In this document: piece after piece, positions 42,613 to 47,119 of the stretch
Layout of the letters: each line of letters opens with the position of its first letter
Numbering within the stretch: the stretch's first letter is position 1
Source: Haemophilus haemolyticus
Lineage (GTDB): Bacteria; Pseudomonadota; Gammaproteobacteria; Enterobacterales; Pasteurellaceae
NCBI RefSeq assembly: GCF_003352385.1
Contig: NZ_CP031243.1
Coordinates: 1,342,501 to 1,406,500, forward strand
Length of the DNA stretch: 64,000 nucleotides
Reading direction: 5' to 3'
Notes under the pieces: generated by a model
Told to the model about the DNA's origin: nothing
Seen by the model: the letters and a program-made list of their open reading frames with translations, nothing else
The model's database searches: none
Made by a program: the position numbers and the translations under genes

Positions 42613-43083
42613 TTATTTTTCAGCAAACGCTCGAATTTGTTCTGCACCCAAATGTCCCGGTACGGTTTTTTTCAGGTTTAAATCGCTATCTAAAAAGAGA
42701 TTAAACGGATAGCCACGCACTCTTGCTTTGTCTATAATTTCGCCTTTTTCATCTAAAAGCACCGTGATATTTTTATATTCCAATCCTTTGTACCATTCAA
42801 TAAAATCAGCGGTGTCTTTTTCGCCTTTGTGATCGGGCGAAACAATGGTAATCACTTCAAAGTTGCGATCTTTTTCCGCACTTAAATCATCAATTTCAGC
42901 TAATCCTGCCAAACAAATTGGACACCAAGATGCCCACATTTTTACATACACAGGTTTGCCTTTATATTGGCTTAAAGTAACTGGCTGATTGTTTAAATCT
43001 TTGAGTTGCACATCCGCCAAATTAGTTTGTGCAAAAGCGTTCAGGCTTAATGCCATTAGAAATATTGATAGTAGTTTTTTCAT
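42613..43083 (-). CDS. Periplasmic TlpA/thioredoxin-like protein
   Basis: 156 residues. Signal peptide cleaved after SLNAFA (about 18), then a thioredoxin fold with active site WASWCPIC and cis-Pro region RGYPFNLFLD. It most likely carries electrons from the CcdA-like membrane protein encoded just upstream to the exported MsrAB, the same job as the N-terminal thioredoxin domain of Neisseria PilB/MsrAB. Third gene of the operon, 41 bases after ccdA. Confidence 0.9.
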   Translation of the reverse strand: MKKLLSIFLMALSLNAFAQTNLADVQLKDLNNQPVTLSQYKGKPVYVKMWASWCPICLAGLAEIDDLSAEKDRNFEVITIVSPDHKGEKDTADFIEWYKGLEYKNITVLLDEKGEIIDKARVRGYPFNLFLDSDLNLKKTVPGHLGAEQIRAFAEK

Positions 43084-43124: not shown

Positions 43125-43766
43125 TTACGAAAAATTATTCGTAATCAATAAAATGCCCATCACGATAATTAAAATTCCGCCACCGATTTTAAATTTGTCT
43201 AAGTGTTTATTTAACCCTTTGGCTCGTTTTAGCAAGCTATCAGAGAAAAACGAGAATAAAACAAAGGGAGTTGCCAAACCAAGGACATAAACAAACATCA
43301 TTGATGCACCGTAAAGTGCAGAGCCTTCATCGCCTGATAAAGCTAACACGGAAGCCAGAATCGGGCCAATACAAGGCGTCCAACCAAGACTAAACGTTAA
43401 ACCAAGCACAAATGCCTCAAGTGCGGTTGATTTTCCTGATGTTTTAATTTCCACCAATTTCGTGCGTTCCAATAAGCCAATTTTGAAAATGCCAAGTTGA
43501 TGAATACCCAAAATAATCACGATAACGCCAGCGATAATGCGGGTGGTGTTACTAAATAAAATATTCCCTAAAAAGCCAAAACTAAAGCCTAAACTGACAA
43601 ATGTAAGGGAAAGCCCTAAAATAAATAAAAAAGTATTCAGGACTTTTTTACCGCCTTTACTCAAAATACCAAAATAAATTGGGATAATCGGGAAAATACA
43701 AGGCGAAAGAAAAGAAGCAAGCCCCGCTAAAAATACAGTTCCAATAAGGAGTTGTTGATCTAACAT
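43125..43766 (-). CDS. CcdA-family thiol electron transporter
   Basis: 213 residues with six predicted membrane helices. The two conserved cysteines lie in FLSPCIFPIIPIYFG and LGWTPCIGPILA, the CcdA/DsbD-beta signatures. It moves electrons from cytoplasmic thioredoxin across the membrane, here to the TlpA-like protein. The gene starts 11 bases after msrAB ends. Called ccdA in some annotations, though cytochrome maturation is probably not its role here. Confidence 0.9.
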   Translation of the reverse strand: MLDQQLLIGTVFLAGLASFLSPCIFPIIPIYFGILSKGGKKVLNTFLFILGLSLTFVSLGFSFGFLGNILFSNTTRIIAGVIVIILGIHQLGIFKIGLLERTKLVEIKTSGKSTALEAFVLGLTFSLGWTPCIGPILASVLALSGDEGSALYGASMMFVYVLGLATPFVLFSFFSDSLLKRAKGLNKHLDKFKIGGGILIIVMGILLITNNFS

Positions 43767-43777
43767 CCTACACCTCC

Positions 43778-44839
43778 TTATTTTTTAATGGATTGAATCA
43801 AATATCCGTATCCTGCCTTTTCCATTTCAGCTAACGGAATAAATTTAATTGATGCACTGTTAATGCAATAACGCAAACCGCCTTTATCTTTCGGGCCGTC
43901 ATCAAATACGTGACCTAAATGAGCATTGCCCGCACGGCTTAACACTTCGGTACGTTTCATATTGAAGCTGTTGTCAGTTTCATAATGCACTACATCTTTA
44001 ATGATCGGTTTCGTAAAACTCGGCCAGCCACAACCTGATTCAAATTTATCATTTGAAGAGAAAACAGGCTCGCCTGTGGTGACATCAACATAAATACCGG
44101 GTTGGAAATTATCCCAATATTCGTTACTGAAAGAGCGTTCAGTATGTTTATTTTGAGTAACGGAATATTGCAACGGCGTTAATTTCGCTTTGAGTTCTGC
44201 ATCACTCGGTTTCGGATAATCTTTTTCGTCAATCACAGGTTCATCTGCTTTGGTAATATCAATATGGCAATAACCATTTGGATTTTTCTTCAAATAATCC
44301 TGATGATATTCTTCCGCTATGATGTAATTTTTAAGCGGCTGCACCTCAATTTGCACTGTTTTTTTATATTTGGTTTGAAGCTGGGCGAGTGCTTGTTCGA
44401 TCACCGCTTTATCTGCCCCATCTTGATAATAAATCCCTGTGCGATATTGTCTACCACGATCGTTACCTTGTTTGTTTACACTCGTTGGATCAATCACTTT
44501 AAAATAATATTGCAATAATTTATCGAGGGAAATTTGATTTGCATCGTAAGTGACTTTTACGGTTTCTGCGTGATCAGTTACGCCAATCATCTGATAACTA
44601 GTTTTCTCCGTATTACCATTAGCATAGCCAGAAATCGCATCTTTCACGCCGTGAATACGCTCCATATATGCTTCCATACCCCAGAAACAGCCACCAGCAA
44701 GATAAATTTCACGAATATTTTGCGTATTTTCCATTGCCATTTTTTGTTCTCCAGATGATGATGTTGAATTTTGTATTGCTAAAGTTGGTGTTGCACAGCA
44801 AAGTGCGGTAATAAATAGAAATGTTTTTGATAGTTTCAT
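43778..44839 (-). CDS. msrAB: Secreted bifunctional methionine sulfoxide reductase MsrA-MsrB
   Basis: Reduces both S and R forms of methionine sulfoxide in exported proteins. 353 residues: signal peptide ([17 protein letters not shown]), MsrA domain with catalytic Cys51 in [18 protein letters not shown], and MsrB domain from about 215 with [12 protein letters not shown] and catalytic Cys325 in [13 protein letters not shown]. Promoter at 44879-44907 matches that of the Met-rich peptide gene (see findings). First gene of a three-gene operon with its membrane and periplasmic electron donors. Confidence 0.95.
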
Positions 44840-44878: not shown

Positions 44879-44907
44879 TTAGACGGCGGATAATTCGATT
44901 TCTTACA
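44879..44907 (-). promoter_or_regulatory. Predicted ECF-sigma promoter of msrAB
   Basis: On the minus strand: TGTAAGAAAT, 12 bases, CGTCTAA. CGTCTAA has the CGTC typical of ECF -10 elements. The same two blocks with the same 12-base spacing occur upstream of the Met-rich peptide gene. The -10 block ends 39 bases before the ATG. Confidence 0.7.
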
Positions 44908-45014
44908 GATTTTTGTAAAATTTTTAAAGAAATTGACTAAAATCCATTGTTATAACCAATAATAAAGAGCTAAAACACACTATTTCTCCCTCTTTTCTAA
45001 GGTAAAAAATCTAT

Positions 45015-45878
45015 ATGCAATCATATTCCACTCCTTCGCTTTATCACAAAGCGATTAGTTTTATGGTATCAGCGTACTTTTCCATTACCTTGATGAATGT
45101 ATTTGTCAAAACCGCTTCTCAAACAATCCCTGCCAGTGAAACCTTATTTTCTCGCTTTTTAATCGGCTTGTTTTTCTTACTACCTTTCGTGATTAAAGAT
45201 CGCGATTTTAAAGTAGATACCCGTCAATGGAAATTTTTAATCCTGCGGAATGCCGCGGGTGTATCGAGCATGTTGATTAACTTTTATGTTGTGAAGTTCT
45301 TACCGCTTTCCATCGCTGTCTTATTGATGAATACCTCTGCCCTATTTATCCCGATTTTATTGCTCTTTTTCCATCAAAAAACACCGCTTAATGTACTTTT
45401 GTGTAGCTTAATCGGTTTTCTTGGCGTTTCCATTATTTTACTCACCAATCACAATGGCAATGTTGATCCTATTTATGTGCTGATTGGGTTATCTGGTGCT
45501 GTATTGGCAGGAATGGCATTTATTGGCTTACAAGAATTAAACAAACACAACACACCAAAAAATATCGTATTTTATTTTCATCTGATTGGCACGCTCATGC
45601 TACCAATCTTCTTTATTAACCAATGGAAAATTCCTAATTTATATGAGCTTGGTTTATTGCTATTAGTGGGCGGATTTGGATTGATTTTCCAATTATTGCT
45701 CACTCGTGCTTTTAGATATGCACCAGCCAACGTTATTACTCCTTTTGCTTTCACTGGTGTCATTTTCTCTAGCGTTTTCGACTGGCTCTTTTGGCATCAT
45801 ACGCCTAACCTCTATTTTTGGTTCGGCGCAGTTGTAATTGTGGGAGCGGTAAGTTTATTGGCAAAAATGAAGAAATAA
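45015..45878 (+). CDS. DMT-superfamily (EamA) transporter
   Basis: 287 residues, ten predicted helices in two EamA halves: residues about 12-145 and 155-285 (RFLIGLFFLLPFVI, FSSVFDWLFWHHTPNLYFW). Inner-membrane drug/metabolite carrier; substrate not deducible. Divergent from msrAB; no link to the repair operon is visible beyond position. Confidence 0.85.
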   Translation: MQSYSTPSLYHKAISFMVSAYFSITLMNVFVKTASQTIPASETLFSRFLIGLFFLLPFVIKDRDFKVDTRQWKFLILRNAAGVSSMLINFYVVKFLPLSIAVLLMNTSALFIPILLLFFHQKTPLNVLLCSLIGFLGVSIILLTNHNGNVDPIYVLIGLSGAVLAGMAFIGLQELNKHNTPKNIVFYFHLIGTLMLPIFFINQWKIPNLYELGLLLLVGGFGLIFQLLLTRAFRYAPANVITPFAFTGVIFSSVFDWLFWHHTPNLYFWFGAVVIVGAVSLLAKMKK

Positions 45879-45979
45879 ACACTTTATTTATAAGAATATT
45901 AAATTCAGTACGATTAGGTTATAGCTGGCTCAATAAAGTGCGGTGAAAAGTAACGGTGTTTTTCACACTGTCAAAATTC

Positions 45980-46153
45980 CTAATGTGAATCTTTAAATTT
46001 CTTCATCATCATACTTAAGGTTTTGCAATTTCGTTGAAAACGACGGCAATGAGGGCAAGTTAACAAATGCATTTTTAAACCCATTTTTTCTTGCAGTTCT
46101 AATGGTCGCTCATGAGAATCAGAAATCATTCGAGTGGCTTGGCGACAACGCAT
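45980..46153 (-). CDS. Small zinc-type anti-sigma factor (HxxxCxxC)
   Basis: 57 residues, from ATG 46153 with AGGAGA seven bases upstream, nine bases after the sigma gene stop. It reads MRCRQATRMISDSHERPLEL and continues with HLLTCPHCRRFQ, containing His30-x3-Cys34-x2-Cys37 (numbering approximate), the ZAS motif of zinc anti-sigma factors such as ChrR. No membrane segment, so probably cytoplasmic and redox-sensing. Its place after an ECF sigma gene is the usual arrangement. Short for the class: only the sigma-binding zinc part is present. Confidence 0.8.
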   Translation of the reverse strand: MRCRQATRMISDSHERPLELQEKMGLKMHLLTCPHCRRFQRNCKTLSMMMKKFKDSH

Positions 46154-46162
46154 AATTTTCTC

Positions 46163-46708
46163 CTAAAGTTTTTTTGATAAACAATTTTGCAACTGCAAAC
46201 GAGCTCGATAAAGTGTGGTATGCAAGTTGGATGTAGTAAGCTGAGTTTCTTGACAAATTTCATCCGATGACAGTTCTAAAAACTCTCTCATCATAAAAAT
46301 TTTGGCATGTTTAGCGGGTAAACAAGTCAGGCAAGTTTCAAAAATCAACCAAAACTCATCAGAATACACTGTTTCCTCTTCGCCCTGTAATTCGCTCGGA
46401 TAATATTCTATATTCCAATGCCCTGTATCATCAAAAAATGTATTAGTTGACTGTTCATCTTCAATCTCACTTTCTAATACAAAGCGTCCTTTCTGGCGAA
46501 GATAATCAATAATTTTATTTTTTAGAATGGCAAAAACCCAAGTTTTAAAAGCAGCTTGATGTTTAAAATTCGCGAGATTGTTAAATGCACTTAAAAATGC
46601 TTCTTGTACTAAATCCTCAGCAAGATCGGCATGGTGCAACTGTAACATTGCAAATTTCAGCATCTGCGTACGAATTTGTTGGAGCTCCATATCAGAAATA
46701 GCATTCAT
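46163..46708 (-). CDS. ECF-type RNA polymerase sigma factor
   Basis: 181 residues. Region 2 spans about 20-85 (DLVQEAFLSAFNNLANF, FKTWVFAILKNKIIDYLRQ) and region 4 about 120-178 (FMMREFLELSSDEICQETQL, LYRARLQLQNCL). In between is an acidic insertion (residues 80-115). It is the second sigma factor called RpoE2 in some Haemophilus work. Co-transcribed with a zinc anti-sigma factor and divergent from the Met-rich peptide gene, which it probably transcribes together with msrAB. Confidence 0.92.
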   Translation of the reverse strand: MNAISDMELQQIRTQMLKFAMLQLHHADLAEDLVQEAFLSAFNNLANFKHQAAFKTWVFAILKNKIIDYLRQKGRFVLESEIEDEQSTNTFFDDTGHWNIEYYPSELQGEEETVYSDEFWLIFETCLTCLPAKHAKIFMMREFLELSSDEICQETQLTTSNLHTTLYRARLQLQNCLSKKL

Positions 46709-46729
46709 TTTAATTCCTTTAAAATTTTT

Positions 46730-46758
46730 TGTAAGAAATGAAAGAGTTTTTCGTCTAA
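46730..46758 (+). promoter_or_regulatory. Predicted ECF-sigma promoter of the Met-rich peptide gene
   Basis: TGTAAGAAAT, 12 bases, CGTCTAA, identical in blocks and spacing to the msrAB promoter while the spacers differ (GAAAGAGTTTTT here, CGAATTATCCGC there). The -10 block ends 61 bases before the ATG. Confidence 0.7.
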
Positions 46759-46819: not shown

Positions 46820-47119
46820 ATGAAAAATATTACATTCAAAAGTGCAATCTTAGGTATGGCTATGTTATTTGGTGTAACAACCGTTTATGCAGAAGAAATG
46901 AAATCTGATGCCATGCCAATGAAATCAGAACCGATGATGAATACCCCAATGAAAAAAATGATGGAATCAGATGATATGAAAATGCACTCTGACCACATGA
47001 TGAAATCCGACAATATGATGAAGTCTGATGAAATGGGCATGAAATCTGATATGAAAATGAAATCTGATAAAAAGATGAAATCAAATAAAAAAATGAAAAT
47101 GACAAAAGAAAAAATGTAA
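46820..47119 (+). CDS. Secreted methionine-rich peptide
   Basis: 99 residues. Signal peptide cleaved after TTVYA (about 24), leaving a mature chain of about 75 residues with about 22 Met, plus many Lys, Ser and Asp in degenerate M-K-S-D repeats. It has no cysteine or folded-domain look. Such peptides can act as sacrificial oxidant sinks, regenerated by periplasmic Msr, as reported for MrpX of Azospira. The ECF promoter shared with msrAB supports that role. Metal (copper) binding by Met residues is an alternative. Two long minus-strand frames over it are shadows of the repeat. Confidence 0.88.
   Translation: MKNITFKSAILGMAMLFGVTTVYAEEMKSDAMPMKSEPMMNTPMKKMMESDDMKMHSDHMMKSDNMMKSDEMGMKSDMKMKSDKKMKSNKKMKMTKEKM

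Follow-up and report, generated by a model that had tools for sequence, protein, structure and literature searches.

The extracytoplasmic function (ECF) sigma factor RpoE2 of Haemophilus influenzae is reported to be bound and inhibited by the small anti-sigma factor HrsE and to matter for this bacterium in a mouse lung model, its regulon having been probed gene by gene (PMC7907618). According to the available text of that report, the msrAB promoter of H. influenzae 2019 yielded 95 Miller units in Escherichia coli without RpoE2 and 3,640 with it, a rise abolished by HrsE; in an rpoE2 mutant, msrAB, mtsZ, and the doxX cluster were no longer, or hardly, induced by hypochlorite (HOCl); and dmt (by reporter) and, weakly, rpoE2 itself were RpoE2-responsive in the same strain. 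For Neisseria sigma-E, a promoter consensus of –35 GTMAGBWTT and –10 CGTCTAAH with a spacer of 12–13 has been published, and the start site of gonococcal msrA/msrB was mapped six nucleotides (nt) downstream of the promoter (PMC2893595). In the ECF16 (SigF/NrsF) system BcrS–BcrXQP of Brucella, an ECF sigma gene lies beside a gene for a methionine-rich (Met-rich; MXKDX) peptide, together with a methionine sulfoxide (MetSO) reductase (PMC8315932). Here, we analyzed a stretch of 64,000 nt from Haemophilus haemolyticus (GCF_003352385.1, NZ_CP031243.1, positions 1,342,501–1,406,500; hereafter, the window), in which an rpoE2-type gene lies between two copies of one putative promoter, one before msrAB and the other before a gene for a Met-rich peptide. 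The RpoE2–msrAB link and the promoter consensus are already known. As far as literature searches go, what is new is the Met-rich peptide as a second predicted target, its conservation with the promoter and a reductase, and the exchange of that reductase; no Met-rich peptide of Pasteurellaceae was described in the searched open-licence literature, where absence is no proof, and such a peptide is undiscussed in the papers found on RpoE2-type regulons.

Candidate promoters on either side of the sigma gene

The element TGTAAGAAAT-N12-CGTCTAA, with 17 fixed bases and a 12-base spacer, occurs exactly at two sites in the window, and the spacer sequences of the two differ. The first site (44879–44907, minus strand) ends 39 nt before the start codon of msrAB (44839), and the second (46730–46758, plus strand) ends 61 nt before the start of the open reading frame (ORF) of the Met-rich peptide (46820–47119, plus strand). 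Between them lies the gene for an ECF sigma factor of 181 amino acids (46163–46708, minus strand), which matched Sigma70_r2 and r4_2, scored above the cut-offs of NF009182 and TIGR02943, and is of the RpoE2 type; it was 97% identical to the sigma factor of an H. quentini record. The exact positions, the unrelated spacers, and the intervening sigma gene were all as an earlier reading of the sequence alone (hereafter, the sequence-only reading) had described them. Taking TGTAAGAAAT as the –35 and CGTCTAA as the –10 element, both sites agreed with the Neisseria sigma-E consensus at 15 of 17 positions and outscored every other site in the window, the closest of which reached 14.

The sequence-only reading had also held the repeat to be unlikely by chance and had proposed a genome-wide scan, in which many random matches would speak against a regulon. 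Just two exact matches were found in the 1,973,061-bp genome, where about 0.001 would be expected by our own arithmetic with an assumed base composition. With up to three mismatches allowed, the window contained three matches against a shuffle mean of 0.31. The genome as a whole contained 17 (the two exact ones, one with two mismatches within a metG-like ORF of locus L003, and 14 with three), against 19 for the reversed-pattern control; only the exact class therefore stands out, the loose matches are noise, and searching at three mismatches within this genome was abandoned as useless. A refined pattern, TGTMAGNAW-N13-CGWCTAA, returned only the same two sites. The motif thus coincides with an independently published sigma-E promoter consensus and stands alongside an RpoE2-type sigma gene, and the recurrence across the family described below adds to this; a shared ECF promoter, and with it common membership of msrAB and the peptide gene in a predicted regulon, is well supported.

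Promoter, peptide, and reductase across Pasteurellaceae

Of 140 Pasteurellaceae genomes surveyed, 36 had no RpoE2 match, and the other 104 together carried 112 copies. The refined pattern produced 128 exact matches, spread over 79 of the 140 genomes, compared with 18 for the reversed control. After deduplication by sequence over loci L129–L356, 125 distinct contexts were obtained, 100 of which precede msrAB (43), an rpoE2-linked Met-rich peptide gene (30), a doxX/MNIO (oxazolin/bufferin) cluster (25, one of them ending at a contig edge), or msrP (2). The motif lay on the coding strand, 35–95 nt upstream of msrAB and, for 27 of 31 Met-rich ORFs, 57–113 nt upstream of the ORF, the other four having an extra in-frame upstream ATG. 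The doxX clusters as targets agree with the published RpoE2 dependence of these genes, which is independent of how the motif was built. This bears on the methionine-repair regulon proposed in the sequence-only reading: its shared promoter and membership hold, but in many relatives the doxX–oxazolin cluster is also under the motif, so repair is not the whole content of the regulon. PF05114 (MNIO) had no match in the window's genome (G000), where no doxX/MNIO operon was recognized by this model, and none in G002, while the other eight of ten Haemophilus-genus genomes had one each; G000 and G002 appear to lack the oxazolin enzyme. Two loci (L248 and L250, of G158 and G155) had two motif copies 72 bp apart before the doxX/MNIO cluster.

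Among the remaining contexts, 15 lay inside coding sequence and were rejected as targets (for example, rpoE2 itself in L178, L180, L253, and L258, and gmk-like ORFs in L307 and its kin). Ten preceded other genes, namely DUF417 (4), PEBP-like (2, one scanned), HlyC-like (2, one scanned), thioredoxin-like (1), and DUF440 (1). The DUF417-type membrane proteins were those of L297, L298, L320, and L342 (L320 and L342 scanned, L342 with a weak RclC match). A small secreted-looking protein was encoded between the motif and the DUF417 gene in L297, L298, and L320; in L320 this protein contains Met and lies away from rpoE2, and the context was counted with the DUF417 group. At L159 (1501–2080, G036; scanned) and L323 (G127), the motif lay about 41 nt before a gene of the HlyC family resembling RTX acyltransferases. 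The window also encodes a DUF440 protein, which shares all but 1 of 107 residues with HI1450 of H. influenzae (PDB 1nnv).

Linkage of the peptide to rpoE2 was scored over the 112 copies. A peptide was defined as an ATG-started ORF of at most 260 amino acids with at least 7 Met and at least 10% Met, located divergently within 260 bp of rpoE2 or codirectionally 400–520 bp upstream; peptides poorer in Met, interrupted in frame, or starting with a codon other than ATG would be scored as absent. By this definition, a peptide gene lay beside rpoE2 in 46 copies, 38 divergently and 8 upstream in the same direction, the named examples of the latter being from Aggregatibacter. A site with 13–15 of the 17 consensus positions preceded each of the eight codirectional genes, and the existence of both arrangements indicates that the peptide–rpoE2 linkage survives rearrangement. 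The peptide stood alone in 33 copies and was followed by msrAB in 8 and by msrP in 5. The peptide-free copies had msrP (27), msrAB (6), or an MNIO gene (1) directly, a doxX/MNIO cluster further off (15), or none of these (17, including two second rpoE2 copies of genomes counted as peptide alone). In all, msrP was the divergent neighbor or followed the peptide in 32 of the 112 copies; the one protein checked scored 476 bits with NF003767 (cut-off, 207).

Consensus sites were scored on the divergent strand or, for the eight codirectional copies, in the 250 bp before the peptide, and sites with at least 14 of 17 positions were called good. By the initial scoring, good sites accompanied the peptide gene in 38 of 46 copies (27/33 with the peptide alone, 8/8 with msrAB, and 3/5 with msrP) and in 25 of 942 control windows; the former count became 39 of 46 when the peptide copy of G006, which carries the exact motif and had first been scored 13 on the other copy of that genome, was rescored. 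Peptide-free copies also had good sites where msrAB (4/6), msrP (16/27), or MNIO (1/1) followed directly, and none of the remaining 32 copies, which have no peptide, reductase, or MNIO gene as divergent neighbor, reached 14 in the divergent direction. In G113, a 15/17 site faced rpoE2 itself, and in relatives the motif likewise leads peptide–rpoE2 units (8 copies).

Promoter and peptide appear to have decayed together twice, judging from their sequences. One case is a supported clade made up of G001, G004, G005, G007, G008, and G009, which includes two records titled H. haemolyticus and one titled H. influenzae: five of the six genomes had no peptide and one had a 72-amino-acid version, and the –10 element was damaged or no site was found. 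A second group, with a spacer one base shorter (11 bases), had 63-amino-acid peptides in G137 and G138 and none in G139 and G142. Together, these results make a recurrent association of the predicted promoter, the peptide, and a reductase across the family well supported. A promoter that can be read from sequence yields a short, checkable list of candidate targets, comprising msrAB, the Met-rich peptide gene, and, where present, the oxazolin operon.

The sigma operon itself was duplicated in two genomes. In G006 (L187, 5012–9566) and G002 (L188, 5023–9575), rpoE2–hrsE occurred twice, about 4 kb apart, with sigma factors 97–98% identical to that of the window. Three genes lay between the copies, which in L187 matched Nmad2, Nmad3, and PADLOC PDC-S26, and the insert looks like a defense cassette flanked by the duplication.

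The peptide as a proposed methionine sink

The window peptide has 99 amino acids, 25% Met, and MKSD repeats. Its N terminus, MKNITFKSAILGMAMLFGVTTVYA, resembles a signal peptide by our own reading rather than by a predictor, and the peptide is probably secreted. No family model matched it in Pfam or NCBIfam; TIGR02953 likewise did not, and its highest score among three relatives was 32.2 bits (cut-off, 41), although some relatives are named "Pentapeptide MXKDX repeat protein" in their source annotation. Named close protein hits came from H. haemolyticus, H. parahaemolyticus, H. parainfluenzae, and Rodentibacter. Over 43 distinct peptides, the medians were 21% Met, 19.5% Lys, 1.8% His, and 0% Cys. 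The longest (L217 of G034, also L030) had 191 amino acids with about a dozen near-identical KMKSDSMMKDD-like repeats.

The product of msrAB (43778–44839, minus strand), a bifunctional MetSO reductase, matched PMSR, SelR, and NF010625 (532.1 bits; cut-off, 522), and MsrAB is periplasmic in H. influenzae according to the literature. Downstream on the same strand, as had been claimed, we found genes for a CcdA/DsbD-type membrane protein (43125–43766; DsbD_TM) and a TlpA-type thioredoxin-like carrier (42613–43083; AhpC-TSA/Redoxin), the latter aligning to positions 37–170 of the 521-position NF010625 model. Next to rpoE2 lies the gene for an HrsE-type zinc anti-sigma factor (45980–46153, minus strand), which matched zf-HC2 and NF052368 (antisigmaE; 69.9 bits, cut-off 50). 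By our reading, it carries HxxxCxxC as HLLTCPHC, as in the small ZAS zinc anti-sigma factors; counted from the ATG used here, it has 57 amino acids, compared with 67 in the published annotation of H. influenzae. A gene for a drug/metabolite transporter (DMT; EamA family-model match) also lies between the two promoter sites (45015–45878, plus strand). Its best candidate site in the window was poor (13/17, spacer 10, at 44915), and no good site faced rpoE2 within 865 bp (best, 13/17); the reported responses of dmt and rpoE2 could reflect indirect effects or a weaker site. Regarding mtsZ, none of the 17 genome matches lay at any of seven TIGR00509 places, none of which reached the family cut-off, so mtsZ may not be among them.

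We propose, with a probability of roughly 0.7, that the two sites are promoters of the RpoE2 encoded between them and that the peptide is a sacrificial Met sink recycled by a periplasmic MetSO reductase. In this model, RpoE2 would be held by HrsE and released by oxidants; once free, RpoE2 would activate msrAB–ccdA–tlpA and, through the other site, the gene for the Met-rich peptide. Periplasmic hypochlorite or chloramines would oxidize the methionines of the peptide, and MsrAB, with electrons from CcdA and TlpA, would re-reduce them, so that the pair could act as a catalytic scavenging cycle. The sequences show that both sites match the promoter consensus, that this promoter is conserved, and that peptide and reductase genes are paired; that RpoE2 uses the site before the peptide gene, that the peptide is secreted, and that its methionines act sacrificially are what we infer from them. 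The gene set and shared promoter of the sequence-only reading were accordingly recovered, and its sacrificial peptide is retained here as a proposal. The sink is suggested by the pairing of these peptides with enzymes of two unrelated families that act on one substrate class, the thiol-dependent MsrAB, with CcdA and TlpA, and the molybdenum enzyme MsrP. Such peptides, associated with two unrelated MetSO reductases under one predicted promoter, offer a natural test of the sacrificial-methionine idea.

Several observations weigh against this proposal. The peptide is known from its sequence, its transcript and protein being predicted, and it is dispensable for the system: a reductase gene is the divergent neighbor of rpoE2 in 46 copies, and 33 of these (27 msrP and 6 msrAB) were scored as peptide-free. 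The only H. influenzae-titled locus among 80 named ones (L052, HI-5290) had no peptide and a damaged site. On a quick sigma-protein tree, in which 38 of 105 inner branches were unsupported and both G006 rows are one sequence, at least 18 gains or losses of the peptide were required; on the same tree, one change suffices for the msrP/msrAB exchange. Amino-acid-changing codon differences outnumbered silent ones in three of four groups of relatives, so that the peptides turn over fast and their orthology rests on position and composition. An rpoE2 mutant of H. influenzae is also reported to have wildtype oxidant resistance in vitro. Finally, the peptide of L220 (G161), which is lipoprotein-like with NMKMHD repeats, 30% Met, and 11% His, is possibly metal-binding.

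This last peptide also speaks for the alternative that survives best, an unlikely one in our estimate, in which the peptides are Cu(I)/Ag(I) sponges, RpoE2 controls a copper and thiol stress regulon together with an oxazolin RiPP (ribosomally synthesized and post-translationally modified peptide), and MsrAB repairs copper-oxidized Met. Met-rich stretches are able to bind Cu(I). The oxazolin whose doxX/MNIO clusters follow the motif in 25 of the 125 contexts is reported to bind copper, and the G110 and G112 peptides have 7–8% His. Set against this, His and Cys are scarce in the median peptide, the window genome keeps its peptide with no MNIO enzyme found there, the published inducers of rpoE2 are oxidants, with copper not among the compounds tested in the available text, and MetSO reductases from two unrelated families are encoded immediately behind the peptide gene. 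If the peptide bound metal, there would be no reason to expect it beside such reductases, which favors the sink.

We give far less credence to the idea that the second promoter drives a regulatory RNA and that the Met-rich ORF is incidental. A sigma-E-dependent small RNA has been reported in Neisseria, but in all four groups of relatives the codon differences were mostly at the third position (98 of 180 in Haemophilus and 154 of 257 in Rodentibacter, as pairwise sums), suggesting that the frame is translated, and the relatives retain an open frame, a secretion-like N terminus, and their Met content although the number of repeats varies. Slightly less probable again is that another regulator, such as OxyR, uses the repeat as its operator, with no sigma promoter involved: the sites consist of two blocks at a fixed 12–13 spacing that match a consensus with a mapped gonococcal start, are oriented by strand at restricted distances before msrAB and the Met-rich ORFs, and in the 36 genomes without RpoE2 occurred only inside coding sequence (all eight of the 128 matches found there). 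Mere chance likeness of two AT-rich upstream regions, toward which the loose-match counts in this genome point, is refuted by the family scan, since neither the excess of exact matches over the reversed control nor that of good sites over control windows is given by chance.

Relation to described systems

The locus is closest to RpoE2/HrsE of H. influenzae (Nasreen et al. 2021, PMC7907618), with which it shares the type of sigma and anti-sigma factor, the msrAB operon, and the dmt neighbor; the described system responds to hypochlorite, and the doxX cluster is RpoE2-dependent there as well. It differs in that the available text of that report gives no promoter consensus, does not contain the word "methionine-rich," and calls the region upstream of rpoE2 intergenic. 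With Neisseria sigma-E/MseR (Hopman et al. 2010, PMC2893595; PMC3240639), the locus shares the promoter consensus, a ZAS anti-sigma factor, and a methionine sulfoxide reductase target (msrA/msrB) within a very small regulon, which includes a doxX-type cluster according to PMC7907618. In Neisseria, the sigma gene lies within its own target operon, whereas rpoE2 of the window has no good site facing it, and a Met-rich peptide is not described in the available text of PMC2893595 and PMC3240639. The oxazolin/bufferin MNIO clusters (the hvf operon of H. influenzae; PMC13419390, PMC12452194) are preceded by the same motif in relatives; they form a copper-binding RiPP system, and their enzyme was not found in the window's genome.

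The ECF16 systems resemble the window in the arrangement of sigma, peptide, and reductase genes and share hypochlorite induction and a –35 TGTAA, but they have a six-helix DUF1109 membrane anti-sigma factor, a CGAA-type –10 element, and an MsrP/MsrQ-type partner (PMC8315932). The window and its kin instead have a zinc anti-sigma factor of 57–67 amino acids, the –10 CGTCTAA, and MsrAB–CcdA–TlpA as partner (msrP in relatives). The Met-rich peptide fits the MXKDX peptides in position and composition, though not by TIGR02953. Azospira SigF–MrpX–YedY is reportedly a Met-rich peptide ECF16 system of the same logic. With zf-HC2 in place of DUF1109/NrsF and MsrAB in place of MsrP, two defining ECF16 features are absent from the window system, and we therefore do not class it as a member, although it would work like one. 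A peptide–reductase design thus appears outside the ECF16 systems, where it was described. We tentatively suggest, as an idea that we hold to be rather less than even, that a sacrificial Met-rich peptide came under the control of a zinc-anti-sigma ECF factor in Pasteurellaceae separately from the ECF16/MrpX lineage, that the peptide and its promoter were then retained even as the reductase changed (MsrP or MsrAB–CcdA–TlpA), and that the fast-evolving peptide may double as a hypochlorite sink and a Cu(I) buffer, which would complement the oxazolin arm or, in genomes that lack the oxazolin enzyme, as this one apparently does, stand in for it.

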